Source: Pseudobutyrivibrio sp. ACV-2 (GTDB lineage: Bacteria; Bacillota; Clostridia; Lachnospirales; Lachnospiraceae). From it: DNA of 64,000 bases. The notes below the pieces were generated by a model. That model was not told the origin of the DNA, did not search any database, and worked only from the letters and a program-made list of their open reading frames with translations. Both the position numbers and the translations under genes were made by a program. The stretch covers positions 74,408 to 138,407 of the forward strand of contig NZ_FNQZ01000007.1 of the NCBI RefSeq assembly GCF_900107545.1, read 5' to 3'. This document shows positions 6,176 to 60,443 of the stretch, one piece after another; the stretch's first letter is position 1, and every line of letters starts with the position of its first letter.

Positions 6176-6222
6176 GGCTTCCCCTTGAGGGGAAGCTGTC
6201 AGCGAAGATGACTGATGAGGTG
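6176..6222 (+). repeat. Palindromic repeat copy 1 (two hairpins + GATGAGG)
   Basis: GGCTTCCCC-TTGA-GGGGAAGC, then GTCA...TGAC, then TGATGAGGTG. It lies 2 bp after the ATPase stop. Its terminal GAGGTG is the only Shine-Dalgarno for the permease start at 6229 (6-nt spacing). The second stem is weakened relative to other copies. Confidence 0.85.
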
Positions 6223-18596: not shown

Positions 18597-18854
18597 TAGT
18601 AAATACCGATTTTTTTCTAACCTGGGATGAACGATTTAACTTATCCTTTTTGAACCTACATTTACTTTAAACGGAATGCTTATATTTCTAATTGGCTGTC
18701 AGGCCTCCAATGCGCAGTGGAAGACAAAAAATTAGTTGCGGCGATCCACCTAGCTAGAGCTAGGAGTCAATTGATAGGCCCGTCACTCTGGGTTAGATAT
18801 TTAAAAGATAGAGAAAAACGAATGAAAGCGTTCGTTTTTCTCTATCTTTTTTTT
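18597..18854 (+). ncRNA. Structured non-coding RNA, possibly 6S RNA
   Basis: About 460 bp separate pckA and the next gene, with no convincing ORF. The stretch 18597-18854 starts just after a TATAAT box and ends in a perfect 20-bp terminator. CTAACCT near 18617 can pair with GGGTTAG near 18790 to close the molecule. Inside are a perfect hairpin CCTAGC-TAGA-GCTAGG (about 18749-18764) and a bulged long-range pairing (TAATTG with CAATTG). A rod of about 190 nt with a terminal closing stem and an internal bubble fits 6S RNA, the RNA polymerase decoy of Firmicutes. I cannot prove homology without a covariance search. It is not tmRNA, RNase P or SRP RNA by motif. Confidence 0.55.
18803..18854 (+). 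terminator. Strong terminator of the structured RNA
   Basis: A perfect 20-bp stem (18803-18822 with 18831-18850), 8-nt loop TGAAAGCG, then T residues. Confidence 0.93.
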
Positions 18855-39199: not shown

Positions 39200-39202
39200 A
39201 TA

Positions 39203-39249
39203 GCCTTCCCCATTAGGGGGAAGGTGTCAGCGTAGCTGACGGATGAGGG
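39203..39249 (+). repeat. Palindromic repeat copy 2
   Basis: GCCTTCCCC-ATTA-GGGGGAAGG, then GTCAGC-GTA-GCTGAC, then GGATGAGGG. It starts 3 nt after the hydG stop. Its terminal GAGGG is the ribosome site for hydF (7-nt spacing to 39257). Confidence 0.93.
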
Positions 39250-39256
39250 AAATATT

Positions 39257-40441
39257 ATGTCACTAAATAACACACCAAGCGGTGCACGCACCCACATAGG
39301 CTTTTTTGGTATCAGAAACGCCGGTAAATCAAGCATAGTAAATAAGCTCACCAATCAGGAAATATCCCTTGTGTCAGCCCATAAAGGTACCACCACGGAC
39401 CCTGTTAAAAAGTCCATGGAGCTTCTTCCTATAGGCCCTGTTGTTATAATCGATACAGCAGGCTTTGACGATGAAGGAGAGCTTGGAGAACTTAGGAAAC
39501 ATCGCACCTATCGCATTTTAGATGAAATGGATATTGTTGTACTGGTGCTTGATGCCAGAGAACAGGTCATTTCAGAGGAGGAAATTGATTTCCTTAAGGA
39601 TGTAAAATCAAGAAAGCTTCCTTATATCATAATTGAAAATCATACAGATGAGGCTGAGGCTCATGGCTTTAAAGAACTTTCAGACGAAAATATCATATTT
39701 GTAGATGCTACAAAGGATGATATGTCTAAAGTAAAAGAGGCTCTTATTAGCCTCAAGCCAGAAAAAAAGGAGCCAGTTCTTTTGGCAGATTTAGTCAAGC
39801 CAAAGGATACAGTAGTCCTTGTAATTCCAATAGATGAATCAGCTCCAAAAGGTAGAATTATTCTTCCACAGCAAATGGTTTTAAGAGATTTGTTGGATAA
39901 TCATTGTAAGGCTATCTGCTGCCAACCACAGGAATTAGCTGAAACCCTCAAGGAAAACAGCAATGTTTCATTAGTAATTACAGATTCTCAGGCGTTCAAA
40001 AAGGTTGCTGAAATTGTACCAAATGAGATAGAGCTTACTTCTTTTAGTATTCTTATGGCAAGATACAGAGGAAGTCTGGGCACACAGCTTGAGGGAGTTG
40101 CAGCCATAAAATCCCTTAAAGCTGGTGACAAGGTGCTTATTTCCGAAGCCTGCACACATCACAGGCAGTGCAACGATATTGGCACAGTTAAAATACCAGG
40201 CTGGGTAAAAAACTACACAGGCCAGGATATAATTTTTGAATTTTCATCAGGTAATGAATTTCCAGAGGATTTATCAGCCTACGCACTTGTCATTCACTGT
40301 GGCGGCTGCATGATAAATGAAGCAGAAATGAAAAGCCGAGTAAAACACTGCAAAGAGCAGGGCGTTCCAATCGTAAATTATGGCATGGCTATTGCAGAAT
40401 TTAATGGAATTTTAGACAGAAGTCTTAGAATATTACAATAG
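39257..40441 (+). CDS. hydF: [FeFe] hydrogenase maturase HydF (GTPase scaffold)
   Basis: 394 residues. GTPase domain: GIRNAGKSSIVN (P-loop), GTTTDP, DTAGFDDEG. Then a dimerisation domain and a C-terminal cluster-binding region with CTHHRQC and HCGGCM. HydF receives the di-iron unit and delivers it to HydA. The start is set by the repeat-derived GATGAGGG. The stop TAG uses the first G of the next repeat copy. The first 25 or so codons are rich in A/C third bases. The hydrogenase itself is not in the window. Confidence 0.95.
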   Translation: MSLNNTPSGARTHIGFFGIRNAGKSSIVNKLTNQEISLVSAHKGTTTDPVKKSMELLPIGPVVIIDTAGFDDEGELGELRKHRTYRILDEMDIVVLVLDAREQVISEEEIDFLKDVKSRKLPYIIIENHTDEAEAHGFKELSDENIIFVDATKDDMSKVKEALISLKPEKKEPVLLADLVKPKDTVVLVIPIDESAPKGRIILPQQMVLRDLLDNHCKAICCQPQELAETLKENSNVSLVITDSQAFKKVAEIVPNEIELTSFSILMARYRGSLGTQLEGVAAIKSLKAGDKVLISEACTHHRQCNDIGTVKIPGWVKNYTGQDIIFEFSSGNEFPEDLSAYALVIHCGGCMINEAEMKSRVKHCKEQGVPIVNYGMAIAEFNGILDRSLRILQ

Positions 40442-40483
40442 CCTTCCCCTTGAGGGGAAGGTGCCCAGAGGGCGGATGAGGTG
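40441..40483 (+). repeat. Palindromic repeat copy 3 (GCCC-stem variant)
   Basis: GCCTTCCCC-TTGA-GGGGAAGG, then GCCC-AGA-GGGC, then GGATGAGGTG. The second stem differs completely from the GTCAGC form yet still pairs. It abuts the hydF stop codon, sharing its G. No gene starts downstream on this strand. Confidence 0.92.
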
Positions 40484-45575: not shown

Positions 45576-45626
45576 GCCTTCTCCCCTTAGTAGGGGGAAG
45601 GTGTCACCGCAGGTGACGGATGAGGG
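45576..45626 (+). repeat. Palindromic repeat copy 4
   Basis: GCCTTCTCCCC-TTAGTA-GGGGGAAGG, then GTCACC-GCA-GGTGAC, then GGATGAGGG. The second stem has a third sequence (GTCACC/GGTGAC), again fully paired. It lies 7 nt after the YitT stop; here the next gene has its own AGAGGT ribosome site. Confidence 0.93.
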
Positions 45627-50511: not shown

Positions 50512-50533
50512 GTTTGTCGAAATAAAAAGTGAG

Positions 50534-50698
50534 TTTAGGTGTCCATAGATTCGTATATACGAATTGGTATGGGTGAAAAGGGAATCTGGTGCGAATCCAG
50601 AGCGAAGCCGTCACTGTGTTAGGGAGTCTGTATTCAAGTCACTGAGTTATGCTTGGGAAGAGAATGCAGATGATGATCGAAGTCAGGAGACCTGCCTA
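50534..50698 (+). promoter_or_regulatory. Cobalamin (adenosylcobalamin) riboswitch
   Basis: The conserved core is present: GGTGAAAAGGGAA near 50572, GCGAATCC...AGC, GCCGTCACTGT near 50607, and the closing AAGTCAGGAGACCTGCC near 50680. It senses adenosylcobalamin and, with the terminator 60 nt downstream, should switch off the uptake/biosynthesis genes when B12 is abundant. Confidence 0.96.
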
Positions 50699-50753
50699 AT
50701 CTTAAATTAATGATTTGCGGACTTTCGAATCTTAATTCAGAAATTTGTTGAAT

Positions 50754-55044: not shown

Positions 55045-55855
55045 GTTGATATCAACCCTAAAGCTTGATGTAGGATACGGCAAAGAGCCTGTAGTGTCTG
55101 ATGTGAATATTGAAGTATCTCCTGGTGAAATACTTGCAATCATAGGTGCGAATGGTGCAGGTAAATCCACTATTTTAAAAACAATAGTAAGGCAGCTTAA
55201 AAAGCTGGATGGAGAGATTCGCATATGCGAATTAAACGAAGCTTCATTATCCGAAGAGGATATGGCAAAAAAGATATCTATGGTCTTAACCGAGCGAATT
55301 CACCCAGAACTAATGACCTGCTTTGACGTGGTGGCTACTGGCAGATATCCTTATACAGGGCGACTTGGGATTTTATCAGCTGATGATATAAAAGCAGTCA
55401 ACGAAGCCATACATACAGTTGGAGCAGATGAAGTTGCAAATAAAGATTTTTCCAAGGTCAGCGACGGTCAAAGACAAAGAATAATGCTTGCCAGAGCCAT
55501 CTGCCAGGACACCGATATTATGATTTTAGATGAGCCAACTTCATTTTTGGATATTCAATACAAGCTAGACATTTTATCAGTAATCCGACATCTCGCCAAA
55601 GAAAAAGGCAAAGCCGTCATAATGACAATTCACGAGCTGGAATTTGTCCCAGCCCTGGCCGACAAAGTAGTAGCAGTAGCCGACAAAAAAGTATACAAAA
55701 TAGGCACTCCAGAAGAAATTTTTACAGGCGAAACCTTAGAAAAACTCTACGCCATGAAGCCCGGTACAGGAACTCAAATAACCGAAGGCCTCTTAGCTTA
55801 TTCCAAATGCCTTCCCCTTGAGGGGAAGGTGCCCAACGGGCGGATGAGGTGTTAG
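55037..55855 (+). CDS. BtuD/FecE-family ABC ATPase with a repeat-encoded C-terminus
   Basis: 272 residues. Walker A GANGAGKST, signature KVSDGQRQRIML, Walker B IMILDEPTSFLD, H-loop TIHE. The coding sequence runs into a palindromic repeat, so the last residues (about 258-272, including CLPLEGKVPNGRMRC) are repeat-encoded, and the stop TAG uses the first base of a second repeat. The original C-terminus was probably replaced but lies outside the nucleotide-binding core. The last 100 codons are A/C-ending, unlike the 5' part. Confidence 0.92.
   Translation: MDKLISTLKLDVGYGKEPVVSDVNIEVSPGEILAIIGANGAGKSTILKTIVRQLKKLDGEIRICELNEASLSEEDMAKKISMVLTERIHPELMTCFDVVATGRYPYTGRLGILSADDIKAVNEAIHTVGADEVANKDFSKVSDGQRQRIMLARAICQDTDIMILDEPTSFLDIQYKLDILSVIRHLAKEKGKAVIMTIHELEFVPALADKVVAVADKKVYKIGTPEEIFTGETLEKLYAMKPGTGTQITEGLLAYSKCLPLEGKVPNGRMRC
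55809..55851 (+). repeat. Palindromic repeat copy 5 (GCCC-stem variant, coding)
   Basis: GCCTTCCCC-TTGA-GGGGAAGG, GCCC-AAC-GGGC, GGATGAGGTG. It is translated as the end of the ABC ATPase and followed after 3 nt by copy 6. Confidence 0.93.
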
Positions 55856-55902
55856 CCTTCCCCCTTTGGGGGAAGGTGTCAGCGCCAGCTGACGGATGAG
55901 GG
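55855..55902 (+). repeat. Palindromic repeat copy 6
   Basis: GCCTTCCCCC-TTT-GGGGGAAGG, GTCAGC-GCCA-GCTGAC, GGATGAGGG. It is in tandem with copy 5 but of the other stem type, so the pair is not a simple duplication. Confidence 0.93.
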
Positions 55903-57741: not shown

Positions 57742-59187
57742 ATGTCAAAAGTAATCATGGTACAGGGCACAATGTCAAATGTGGGCAAAAGCCTGCTAGT
57801 GGGCGCTTTGTGCAGAATTTTTAAGCAGGATGGCTACAAGGTGGCACCATTTAAATCACAAAATATGGCGCTAAATTCTTTTGTCACAGCAGATGGCTTA
57901 GAGCTTGGAAGGGCGCAGGCCATGCAGGCTGAGTGTGCAGGAGTTGAGCCTAGTGTATATATGAATCCAATTTTACTTAAGCCCACTAATGACATTGGAA
58001 GTCAGGTAATAGTAAATGGTGAAGTGGTAGGAAATATGTCTGCAAGGGACTATTTTGCCTACAAGAAAAACCTTATTCCAGATATTATGGCAGCTTATCA
58101 TGAGCTTGAAAAATGGGCAGACATAATCGTAATTGAAGGAGCAGGCAGTCCCGCAGAAATTAATCTCAAAAGTGATGACATAGTAAACATGGGAATGGCG
58201 GAGCTTGTAGATGCCCCTGTACTTTTAGTGGGAGACATAGATAGAGGTGGAGTGTTCGCCCAGCTACTTGGAACCCTTGAACTTTTAGAGCCTCAGGAGC
58301 GAGACAGAGTAAAGGGACTCATTATCAATAAATTCAGAGGCGACAAAAGCCTTTTAGATTCAGGAATCGACATGCTGGAAGAACGAGGCAAGGTCCCTGT
58401 GGTAGGTACTATTCCATATGTACGTTTGATGATAGATGATGAGGATAGCTTAAGCGAAAGATTAAGTAATTCCTTTTCAGATGACAATAACGTAAATATG
58501 GTGGAAATTGCCGTTGTTAGATTGCCAAGGATTTCAAATTTTACTGACATAGCACCCTTTGAAAATATTTCAGGAGTAAAGGTTAATTTTACTTCAAATC
58601 CAAGAGATATCGAAAATGCGGATATGGTCATTATCCCAGGAAGTAAGAATACCATATCTGATTTACGTTGGATGAGAGAATCAGGCATGGAAGCGGCCAT
58701 CAAAAGATTTGCCATTGAAAAGCCTGTTGTAGGAATATGTGGTGGCTTTCAAATGCTAGGCGAAGAAGTCTTGGACCCAGACCACATAGAAGAGGGGGGA
58801 AGTATCAGAGGACTTGGACTGCTTACACTTAAAACAACATTGCTGAATCAAAAATATAGAAGTCAAACTACAGGCAACTTCCCTGAAATGAAAGGCATCT
58901 TTGCTTCTCTGTCAGGACAAAAATACACCGGCTATGAAATCCATAACGGAAACACAGAGGGCATAAAAATAATCCAAGAAGGCAATATTCTTGGAACCTA
59001 TATCCATGGAATTTTCGATAATGCCGATTTGGCTTACAAGCTTGCATCATCCCTGGCAGAAGCTAAAGGTTGCACTCTGGAGACAGAGTCAATTGATTAT
59101 CAAATCCTAAAAGAAGCCGAATACGATAAATTAGCAAATGCTGTACGTGAAAATCTGGATATGGATTATATATATAAACTGCTATAA
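57742..59187 (+). CDS. cobQ: Cobyric acid synthase (adenosylcobyric acid amidotransferase)
   Basis: 481 residues (CbiP/CobQ). The N-terminal ATPase half has [21 protein letters not shown] and [10 protein letters not shown]. The C-terminal class I glutamine amidotransferase half has the catalytic Cys in [11 protein letters not shown] and His in YIHGIFDN. It amidates four side chains of the corrin ring. The upstream GATGAGGGCTA (57728) resembles the end of the palindromic repeat and serves as ribosome site. Its stop is directly followed by a repeat copy. Confidence 0.95.
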
Positions 59188-59277
59188 GCCTTCCCCCTGT
59201 GGGGAAGAGATAATGCTTTAGCGTTATCTGCCACCCCGGCGAGGGGGAAGGTGTCAGCGTTAGCTGACGGATGAGGG
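59188..59277 (+). repeat. Palindromic repeat copy 7, extended left boundary of the DUF559 unit
   Basis: A 90-bp variant: CTTCCCC-CTGT-GGGGAAG, then an extra hairpin AGATAATGC-TTTA-GCGTTATCT, then GAGGGGGAAGG, GTCAGC-GTTA-GCTGAC and GGATGAGGG. It begins immediately after the cobQ stop and ends with the ribosome site of the DUF559 gene. Confidence 0.9.
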
Positions 59278-59285
59278 CTACCACT

Positions 59286-60443
59286 ATGCCAAGAGTAAAT
59301 GAAAAACTAAAATCAAATTCAAGAAAACTAAGAAAATCAATGACAAAAGAAGAAAGACATCTTTGGTATGACTTTCTAAAAAAATATAAAGTTCCCGTTA
59401 AAAGACAAAAAGTTATAGGACCATACATAGTAGATTTTTACTGTCCCACAGCAAAGTTGGTTATAGAACTAGATGGTTCTCAGCATTTTGAAGAAGAGGG
59501 ACATGAGAAAGACCTTTTAAGAGATAAATATTTAATTGATAATGGTTATAAGATAGTAAGATATTCAAATTACGATATTAATAGAAATTTTGTTGCGGTA
59601 TGTGAGGATATAATGAACATTATTGAAAGGCGAGGGGAACCCTCATCCGTCAGCTACGCTGACACCTTCCCCCTGAGGGGGAAGGCTATAGTCCACTTCG
59701 TGGGCGCAGGCTGTGGAGCAGCCGATCTTATCACAGTTCGAGGAATGAGACTACTACAGCAGGCTGATGTAATCATCTACGCAGGCTCGCTGGTAAACCC
59801 AGAACTTTTAGAATATGCAAAGGAAGATTGCGAAATCTATAACAGCGCCACCATGAACCTAGAGGAGGTCATGGAAGTGATGATTTCTGCAAGTCAGGCA
59901 GGAAAAATGGTGGTGCGTCTCCACACAGGTGAGCCAAGCATTTATGGTGCAGTTCAAGAGCAGATGCATATTTTGGATGAAAAGCATATTCCATATGAGT
60001 CATGCCCAGGTGTAAGCGCCTGCTTTGGCGCCGCAGCCAGCCTTAATTTAGAATACACCCTTCCAGAGGTGAGCCAGTCACTTATTATCACCAGAATGGA
60101 GGGCAGGACATCAGTTCCTAAAAAGGAATCTATAGAAAGCTTTGCAGCACACCAGGCCACCATGGCAATTTACTTAAGCAGCGGTATGCTAGAGGAGCTT
60201 CAAAAGCGACTTATAGCAGGAGGCTACGCTGAGAATACACCTGCGGCTATAGTATACAAAGCCAGCTGGCCTGAAGAACAGAAATTCATATGCACTGTAG
60301 GAACCTTGGCCCAAACTGGTGCAGAAAATAATATCAAAAATCTTGCAGTAATTCTTGTGGGAGATGTTATTGCAAAATCTGGATATGCCCTGAGCAAATT
60401 ATATGACAAGGATTTTGAAACAGGATTTAGGAAGCCCAAATGA
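59286..60443 (+). CDS. cobM: DUF559 endonuclease domain fused to precorrin-4 C11-methyltransferase
   Basis: 385 residues from the ATG at 59286 (GAGGG from the repeat, 8 nt upstream; an ATG at 59271 lies inside the repeat). Residues 1-118 are a DUF559/Vsr-like PD-(D/E)XK domain: SMTKEERHLW, Asp50 in IVDFYC, Glu61 and Asp63 in VIELDG, His67; it looks intact. Residues 119-134 (PSSVSYADTFPLRGKA) are encoded by the inverted repeat. From residue 135 a full-length CobM/CbiF begins (IVHFVGAGCGAADLI, then VIIYAGSLVNPELL), a SAM-dependent methyltransferase of corrin C11. cobM has no start codon of its own at its natural beginning. Confidence 0.88.
   Translation: MPRVNEKLKSNSRKLRKSMTKEERHLWYDFLKKYKVPVKRQKVIGPYIVDFYCPTAKLVIELDGSQHFEEEGHEKDLLRDKYLIDNGYKIVRYSNYDINRNFVAVCEDIMNIIERRGEPSSVSYADTFPLRGKAIVHFVGAGCGAADLITVRGMRLLQQADVIIYAGSLVNPELLEYAKEDCEIYNSATMNLEEVMEVMISASQAGKMVVRLHTGEPSIYGAVQEQMHILDEKHIPYESCPGVSACFGAAASLNLEYTLPEVSQSLIITRMEGRTSVPKKESIESFAAHQATMAIYLSSGMLEELQKRLIAGGYAENTPAAIVYKASWPEEQKFICTVGTLAQTGAENNIKNLAVILVGDVIAKSGYALSKLYDKDFETGFRKPK
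59640..59686 (-). repeat. Palindromic repeat copy 8, inverted orientation, right boundary of the DUF559 unit
   Basis: The reverse complement reads GCCTTCCCCC-TCA-GGGGGAAGG, GTCAGC-GTA-GCTGAC, GGATGAGGG. It is the only copy in the window facing the other way. It is translated as the linker between DUF559 and CobM. Confidence 0.93.

Follow-up and report, generated by a model that had tools for sequence, protein, structure and literature searches.

Introduction

The described systems that most resemble the locus reported here are the REP and REPIN sequences with their RAYT enzymes (REPtrons), built on REPs of the GTAG type, in which small palindromic repeats occur as singletons and as inverted dimers and also enclose the gene of an enzyme, a Y1 transposase of the HUH type. 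An inverted REP pair around the gene is the layout of RAYTs (PMC2817692). In E. coli, BIMEs combine REPs of different types (y with z1 or z2; PMC8266576). Some abundant families of palindromic repeats have no known mobilizing enzyme; among them are the CGTC REPs, which are common in Alphaproteobacteria and, in the words of Di Nocera et al. (2013), “apparently lack a dedicated transposase” (PMC3733652). They share REP-like repeats with the locus described here but differ in having a single stem of 8–9 bp, a CGTC motif, and a CCA tail (PMC3733652). IS200/IS605 elements combine a Y1 transposase with unequal hairpin ends. The RIME and Bru-RS repeats of Rhizobiales are further possible relatives.

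DUF559 proteins have been brought into view from another side. VsrA of Caulobacter, a member of the same Pfam family as the nuclease described here, causes DNA damage when a cytosine methylase is missing; its nuclease activity is inferred from this damage in vivo, and a role in mismatch repair has been proposed (PMC12907096). It is thus treated as a repair enzyme tied to a methylase, and in the main text on VsrA neither “palindrom” nor “inverted repeat” occurs (PMC12907096). In a Deinococcus methylase mutant, a DUF559 gene is listed among the altered repair genes (PMC6712171). No description of DUF559 paired with repeats was found in the open-access literature searched, which is weak evidence because subscription papers mostly, and preprints wholly, fall outside that scope.

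Results and Discussion

A DUF559 gene enclosed by inverted repeats

In the window (the whole stretch of 64,000 nucleotides from Pseudobutyrivibrio sp. ACV-2 analyzed here), the host gene cobQ (57742..59187, + strand) ends in a stop codon that directly abuts a repeat (59188..59278, +). This left repeat comprises hairpin 1, into which an extra small hairpin is inserted, TG, hairpin 2, and the tail CGGATGAGGG, which points toward the nuclease gene. The DUF559 coding part (59271..59637, +) starts either at ATG 59271, within the tail, or at ATG 59286. It is followed by the inverted right repeat (59640..59689, −), its tail also toward the nuclease, which is 96% complementary over 50 nt to a dispersed copy at 39200–39249, and by the reading frame of CobM, a precorrin methyltransferase (59688..60443, +). 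The flanks of the cassette align with a score of 32 in inverted and 13.5 in direct orientation. The preliminary description of a DUF559 gene between two inverted copies of a dispersed repeat was therefore correct in coordinates and layout, and, as in a REPtron, the gene lies between two inverted, genome-dispersed repeats. That two copies face each other only here is true of the window, where all other copies with a whole tail lie on the + strand, but not of the genome, which contains other inverted pairs.

The open frame, said earlier to run into the right repeat, does so and continues through it, in frame, into CobM without a stop. The resulting ORF (59271–60443, 390 codons) encodes DUF559 (PF04480, E 3.1e-28, residues 12–118; 98.3 bits against a curated cut-off of 20.6) and then the methyltransferase domain of CobM (PF00590, E 2.3e-47). 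The former start codon of CobM is gone: the window reads ATA-GTC at the position at which most relatives whose site is empty show ATG-GTT or ATG-ATT, and this ATA leaves a single DUF559-CobM frame of 390 amino acids. CobM must consequently be made either as a natural fusion protein or from an internal start. In a related cassette beside CobM (L043), a new ATG past the stop of the nuclease leads through the repeat into CobM, MNNNLHTPSSVTSGDSFSQREKP-LVYFVGAG. As for the proposed ribosome site in the left repeat, GATGAGGG of the tail, 8 nt before ATG 59286, could serve as such; the longer ORF begins at the ATG inside the tail itself.

As described before, the active-site pattern is intact, D50, E61, and D63 being invariant in 40 of 40 alignment rows, including that of the window protein; H67 is likewise invariant. 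By sequence profile, the closest solved structures are 3hrl (“Endonuclease-Like Protein”, 1.3e-23) and 3r3p (“Mobile intron protein”, 3.5e-4), the latter of which we take to be the Vsr-like (EDxHD) homing endonuclease I-Bth0305I. The AlphaFold2 model has a mean pLDDT of 90.3. The Pfam domains of the window ORF are limited to those of a DUF559-type nuclease and a methylase and include no Y1 domain, which sets the locus apart from IS200/IS605 elements. With regard to a possible defense system, three DUF559 proteins matched part of DpdF in PADLOC (E 5e-9 or weaker); a type II restriction enzyme was matched as well by two of the three.

Two repeat types with coupled bases

The dispersed copies in the window, all on the + strand, follow the layout stem 1, X-TG, stem 2, and a C-Y-GATGAGG tail, where X denotes the final base of stem 1 and Y the middle base of C-Y-G. 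One is of the CT type (6176..6220) and three are of the GG type (39200..39249; 40441..40481, with a short hairpin 2; 45576..45625); two further copies lie in tandem upstream of cbiC (55809..55901). The edges were set by eye, except for the copy at 39200..39249, which folds as two hairpins and a free tail. Four copies, two of them from the window, were folded as single-stranded DNA and all adopted this form; for each, none of 200 shuffled sequences folded as well. The tail, C[GT]GATGAGG, is not accompanied by a GTAG-type head.

Among 140 repeats of named loci, X/Y was G/G in 71, C/T in 66, and mixed in 3, that is, the two positions agreed in 137 of 140 (128 of 128 with a stricter finder); the finders accepted no bases other than G and C at X and G and T at Y. 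The rule was valid in all three tail classes. Base pairing was rejected as the cause of the coupling, as the usual combinations G/G and C/T cannot pair, and reasoning by hand revealed no extended pairing. We infer from this that the foot of the stem and the tail would be recognized together. Among the matches listed, 42 of 52 close inverted pairs were heterotypic, as were 3 of 16 that lie close in tandem; such pairing of unlike types is also a property of the E. coli BIMEs. The flanks of cassettes showed no heterotypic bias (12/22). A structured RNA family was also considered and dismissed, since five loci scanned against Rfam gave no match at E 0.1. In L036, L042, L044, L046, L047, L049, and L220, the loop of hairpin 1 carries, in some repeats, one of two longer, hairpin-like, recurrent inserts, which are candidates for nested elements or for an expanded loop class.

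Cassettes within the genus

The search for PF04480 covered 61 genomes, including 29 from the genus. Of these 29, 13 had a match: 12 carry 14 intact genes (a single copy in the genome of the window), and the gene of G021 is broken (L014/L022), DUF559 being split over two frames in a genome that has no match to the repeat pattern. All 14 intact cassettes had inverted flanks (scores 19.5–44.5, compared with 7.5–15 in direct orientation), and all lie in the cob operon at one of three junctions, CobQ-CobM in the genome of the window, CbiD-CobM in eight genomes, and CbiC-CbiD in five; G008 and G026 hold two cassettes each. It is close to certain that DUF559 and the repeats form one genetic unit in this genus.

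CobM was detected in 28 of the 29 genomes. Six show the order CobQ-CobM and five of these six are empty (gaps of 18–45 bp), so that the empty junctions proposed as a check for a mobile unit do exist in congeneric genomes. At the CbiD-CobM junction of G016, an apparent scar of a cassette was found, in which the right repeat is decayed and the nuclease is absent; this genome (89% complete) has no match to the repeat pattern. On the CobM tree, the eight genomes with a CbiD-CobM cassette and G016 form one clade (99/91), and these cassettes are thus most simply explained by one old insertion. The genome of the window stands apart from that clade. The nucleases situated before CbiD form one clade (95/91), although they come from hosts scattered over the CobM tree. 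Such site-matched nuclease clades would fit a homing endonuclease gene, but are suggestive only. Fresh jumps of the cassette were not seen, as DUF559 is single-copy in the genome of the window and confined to the cob operon throughout the genus, and there was no clear target duplication at cassette sites.

A dispersed dimer traced at one junction

One dispersed dimer from the genome of the window was followed across the 29 genomes. It is present at the orthologous junction in G000, G026, G015, G024, and, with an extra insert, G019. At the same junction, G008 has one repeat and the remnant of a second, G011 has one inverted repeat, and little or nothing is inserted (gap ≤7 bp) in G005, G009, G014, G010, G012, and G020. 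Most other genomes contain a different insert or a longer gap, including G016, G022, and G028, which are nearer kin of the dimer holders than the more distant congeners with clean empty sites; the junction is incomplete in G001, G004, and one of two loci of G006. The dimer may thus stem from a single old insertion, followed by loss in part of the lineages, or have been gained several times. Where the junction is clean, the element follows the stop codon and precedes the ribosome site, at TATAAA/TTTGG, with no clear target duplication. An inverted repeat pair is thus present or absent at orthologous positions, as it is for REPINs and MITE-like elements, although this was seen at one site. With this dimer site and the three cassette junctions, mobility of the cassette unit and of the dispersed dimers on an evolutionary scale is well supported. 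In L223, L224, L225, L227, L228, L233, L237, and L238, the dimer junction holds an unrelated insert of 106–116 bp, which looks structured and is similar between species; for L228 and L237 it gave no Rfam match at E 0.1.

Repeat numbers follow the nuclease

Repeats were counted with the pattern GGRRAAGSTGN{6,30}CKGATGAGG, which covers one repeat class only. The genome of the window has 76 matches. All 12 genus genomes with intact DUF559 have between 8 and 86, and 6 of the 17 without it have 2–35, these DUF559-free congeners including G014 (35) and G003 (20); the reversed pattern had zero matches in the genus genomes. Repeat count and intact DUF559 are associated (Mann-Whitney p 2e-5, relatedness ignored). 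Among 248 other genomes of the phylum, 17 had one to three matches, most of them apparently by chance, and three of the 248 with a strong DUF559 match (G129, G169, and G269) had none. Named DUF559 loci were represented by 50 genomes (50 of the 80 loci described below), of which 41 matched and nine did not; at least three matches were present in 34 of the 50, compared with 1 of the 248, two sets unmatched for kinship. Because genomes are related, none of these counts are independent.

A looser rule assigned a tail class to 71 of the 80 loci. Mapped onto the DUF559 tree, the three classes require 10 changes, compared with a mean of 25.6 after shuffling (0/200 as low); clustering of the smallest class (four rows) is unconvincing alone (19/500). 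The tree rests on few columns, and shared host ancestry may contribute to the clustering.

Y1_Tnp was found in 10 of the 29 genus genomes. Four of the 12 genomes with intact DUF559 hold a match, among them that of the window with one broken and one longer match, and eight (G005, G008, G015, G019, G022, G023, G026, and G028) have none.

Repeat-flanked DUF559 genes in other bacteria

From at least 567 confirmed relatives, the best 80 were examined. Most of these stem from Clostridia MAGs; two are from Anaerolineaceae and two from Selenomonadaceae. Short flanks led us to leave out four of the 80 named loci. In the other 76, flanks of up to 300 bp were aligned locally in inverted orientation with a score threshold of 18, which was reached at 45 loci but in only 1 of 400 control genes taken from these loci. 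Cross-locus pairs reached it in 222 of 2,000 cases, because the repeats resemble one another between loci. Among the 45 loci, the inverted score was higher by at least 5 in 29, and the direct score in 15. The repeat finder placed repeats on both sides of the gene in 28 of the 76 loci (compared with 1 of 3,118 background windows), on one side in 31, and on neither in 17; in 22 of the 28, the tails point toward the gene. Comparison with control genes and background windows, with cross-locus pairs, and with resampled flanks ruled out chance similarity of the flanks. Four additional strong matches from relatives were inspected by eye: L007 and L054 have repeats on the left side, and L055 and L056 lie near contig ends. 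DUF559 genes are accordingly strongly enriched beside inverted repeats, as the preliminary description predicted, and it is strongly supported that the two form one genetic unit in many Clostridia. Together with the empty cobQ-cobM sites, which show that the arrangement is not fixed, this supports its interpretation of the locus as a mobile unit.

The neighbors of these genes vary. A comparison with six Cob proteins gave no match at 1e-10 in any of the 80 named loci. A Pfam survey of ten upstream and nine downstream neighbors, chosen by hand, revealed the order gyrB-DUF559-gyrA in L091 and L133, from two different Clostridia, and tRNA-synthetase genes on both sides of DUF559 in L127. From plasmid records, 19 of 37 matches were examined, 18 of them from outside Bacillota. 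With flanks of 400 bp, 10 of the 19 had an inverted score of at least 18 and nine had no inverted flank; among the controls, that score was attained by 11 of 342 pairs formed across loci and by none of 950 resampled flanks. Three of these loci lie within operons (sufB/sufC, a transhydrogenase operon, and paaD/paaZ). Their repeats differ in sequence from that of the window; in Shinella, the copies have the same core, yet both are on one side of the gene.

In E. coli, ycjD is a DUF559 gene (L212, L213, and L214). Its neighborhood of 1,601 bp is at least 80% covered in 3,333 of 5,426 genomes. A clean empty site was not found, as both absent strains examined show an efflux operon after sapF.

What moves the repeats

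Three explanations other than a mobile unit driven by its own nuclease were weighed. DUF559 might be a homing-type endonuclease gene that settled between pre-existing repeats, which would serve as cutting sites and repair homology and have spread by other means. The profile match to 3r3p, the second-best solved relative, and the fact that each nuclease clade of the genus keeps its own junction, as do the proteins at the CbiD site in their scattered hosts, agree with this, as lineage-to-site matching is a property shared with Vsr-like homing endonucleases. These differ in that no intron or intein was seen here and in that the cassette is bounded by inverted palindromic repeats which are also dispersed. 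Moreover, repeat counts go with DUF559 and the repeat class follows the nuclease tree, and the eight intact-DUF559 genomes without a Y1 match argue against it as well, so that we consider homing into pre-existing repeats unlikely. Mobilization of the repeats in trans by a RAYT or an IS200/605-type Y1 transposase, with DUF559 as a passenger captured once, would account for the RAYT-like layout (PMC2817692), and four of the 12 genomes, including that of the window, do hold a Y1 match. The same eight genomes without such a match disfavor a RAYT as the mobilizer, and DUF559 is linked to repeats of other sequence, and in further phyla, as well; this explanation is highly improbable.

Alternatively, the nuclease could have a host function in repair or stress, comparable with the DNA damage and proposed mismatch repair of Caulobacter VsrA (PMC12907096), and the repeats could be hairpins with a terminator or regulatory role that build up between the genes of operons without being mobilized by it. 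Their strong hairpins, which can act as a leader or ribosome site, are in line with this. However, empty, single, and dimer states at one junction, three cassette junctions within one operon, and very different neighbors elsewhere, such as gyrB and gyrA, are hard to reconcile with such a role, and little weight can be given to it.

The reading we favor, and hold to be probable, is that of a REP/REPIN-like family of elements with a PD-(D/E)XK nuclease as partner in place of a RAYT, the cassette being its autonomous member. Lacking both a Y1 enzyme and a GTAG head, it would work like a REP-RAYT system without being a member: its enzyme is a Vsr-like DUF559 nuclease instead of a Y1 HUH transposase, and its repeat has two hairpins and a GATGAGG-type tail. 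The analogy with REPs and RAYTs drawn in the preliminary description thus holds for anatomy and population pattern. It fails for chemistry, because to our knowledge no PD-(D/E)XK enzyme joins strands, nor do we know of one that transposes alone. Correlation between nuclease and repeats makes DUF559 the likely motor of the unit.

In the mechanism that we propose, the ends of the cassette would be the two inverted two-hairpin repeats with their tails toward the gene, and the small Vsr-like DUF559 nuclease would be the enzyme; the single repeats and inverted dimers dispersed in the genome would be derivatives that lack autonomy and spread in trans. The nuclease would identify the repeat in its folded state, which may be a hairpin in the single-stranded DNA of the lagging strand or a cruciform, from stem foot and tail, and would nick or cut it there. 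Replication or repair might then place a copy of the repeat, the dimer, or the cassette at a new junction between genes, the joining being left to host repair. That DUF559 cuts the repeat and so moves it, and each step from recognition through cleavage to copying, is inferred from layout and distribution.

More tentatively, these units may represent a separate class of mobile elements, in which folded repeats are read via coupled bases of foot and tail and spread by a stand-alone PD-(D/E)XK nuclease, host repair doing the joining, and in which one enzyme family would act on different repeats in Bacillota, Chloroflexota, Pseudomonadota, and Deinococcota; we regard this as possible, if short of probable. 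If so, DUF559 would be the missing partner of many unexplained palindromic repeats of bacteria. Should the favored reading be correct, a hydrolytic nuclease would underlie a REP system. As layout, co-occurrence, and covariation tie a widespread, functionally obscure nuclease family to repeats, the question of the partner becomes directly testable, and the covariation of X and Y supplies ready pairs of substrates for a binding and cleavage assay.

Other features of the window

At gathering scores, Rfam detected only a cobalamin riboswitch (50520–50713) and 6S RNA (18616–18798) in the window. Positions 1–1300 are a serine-rich repetitive region with direct repeats of 42 bp and longer, which resembles the stalk of a surface protein.
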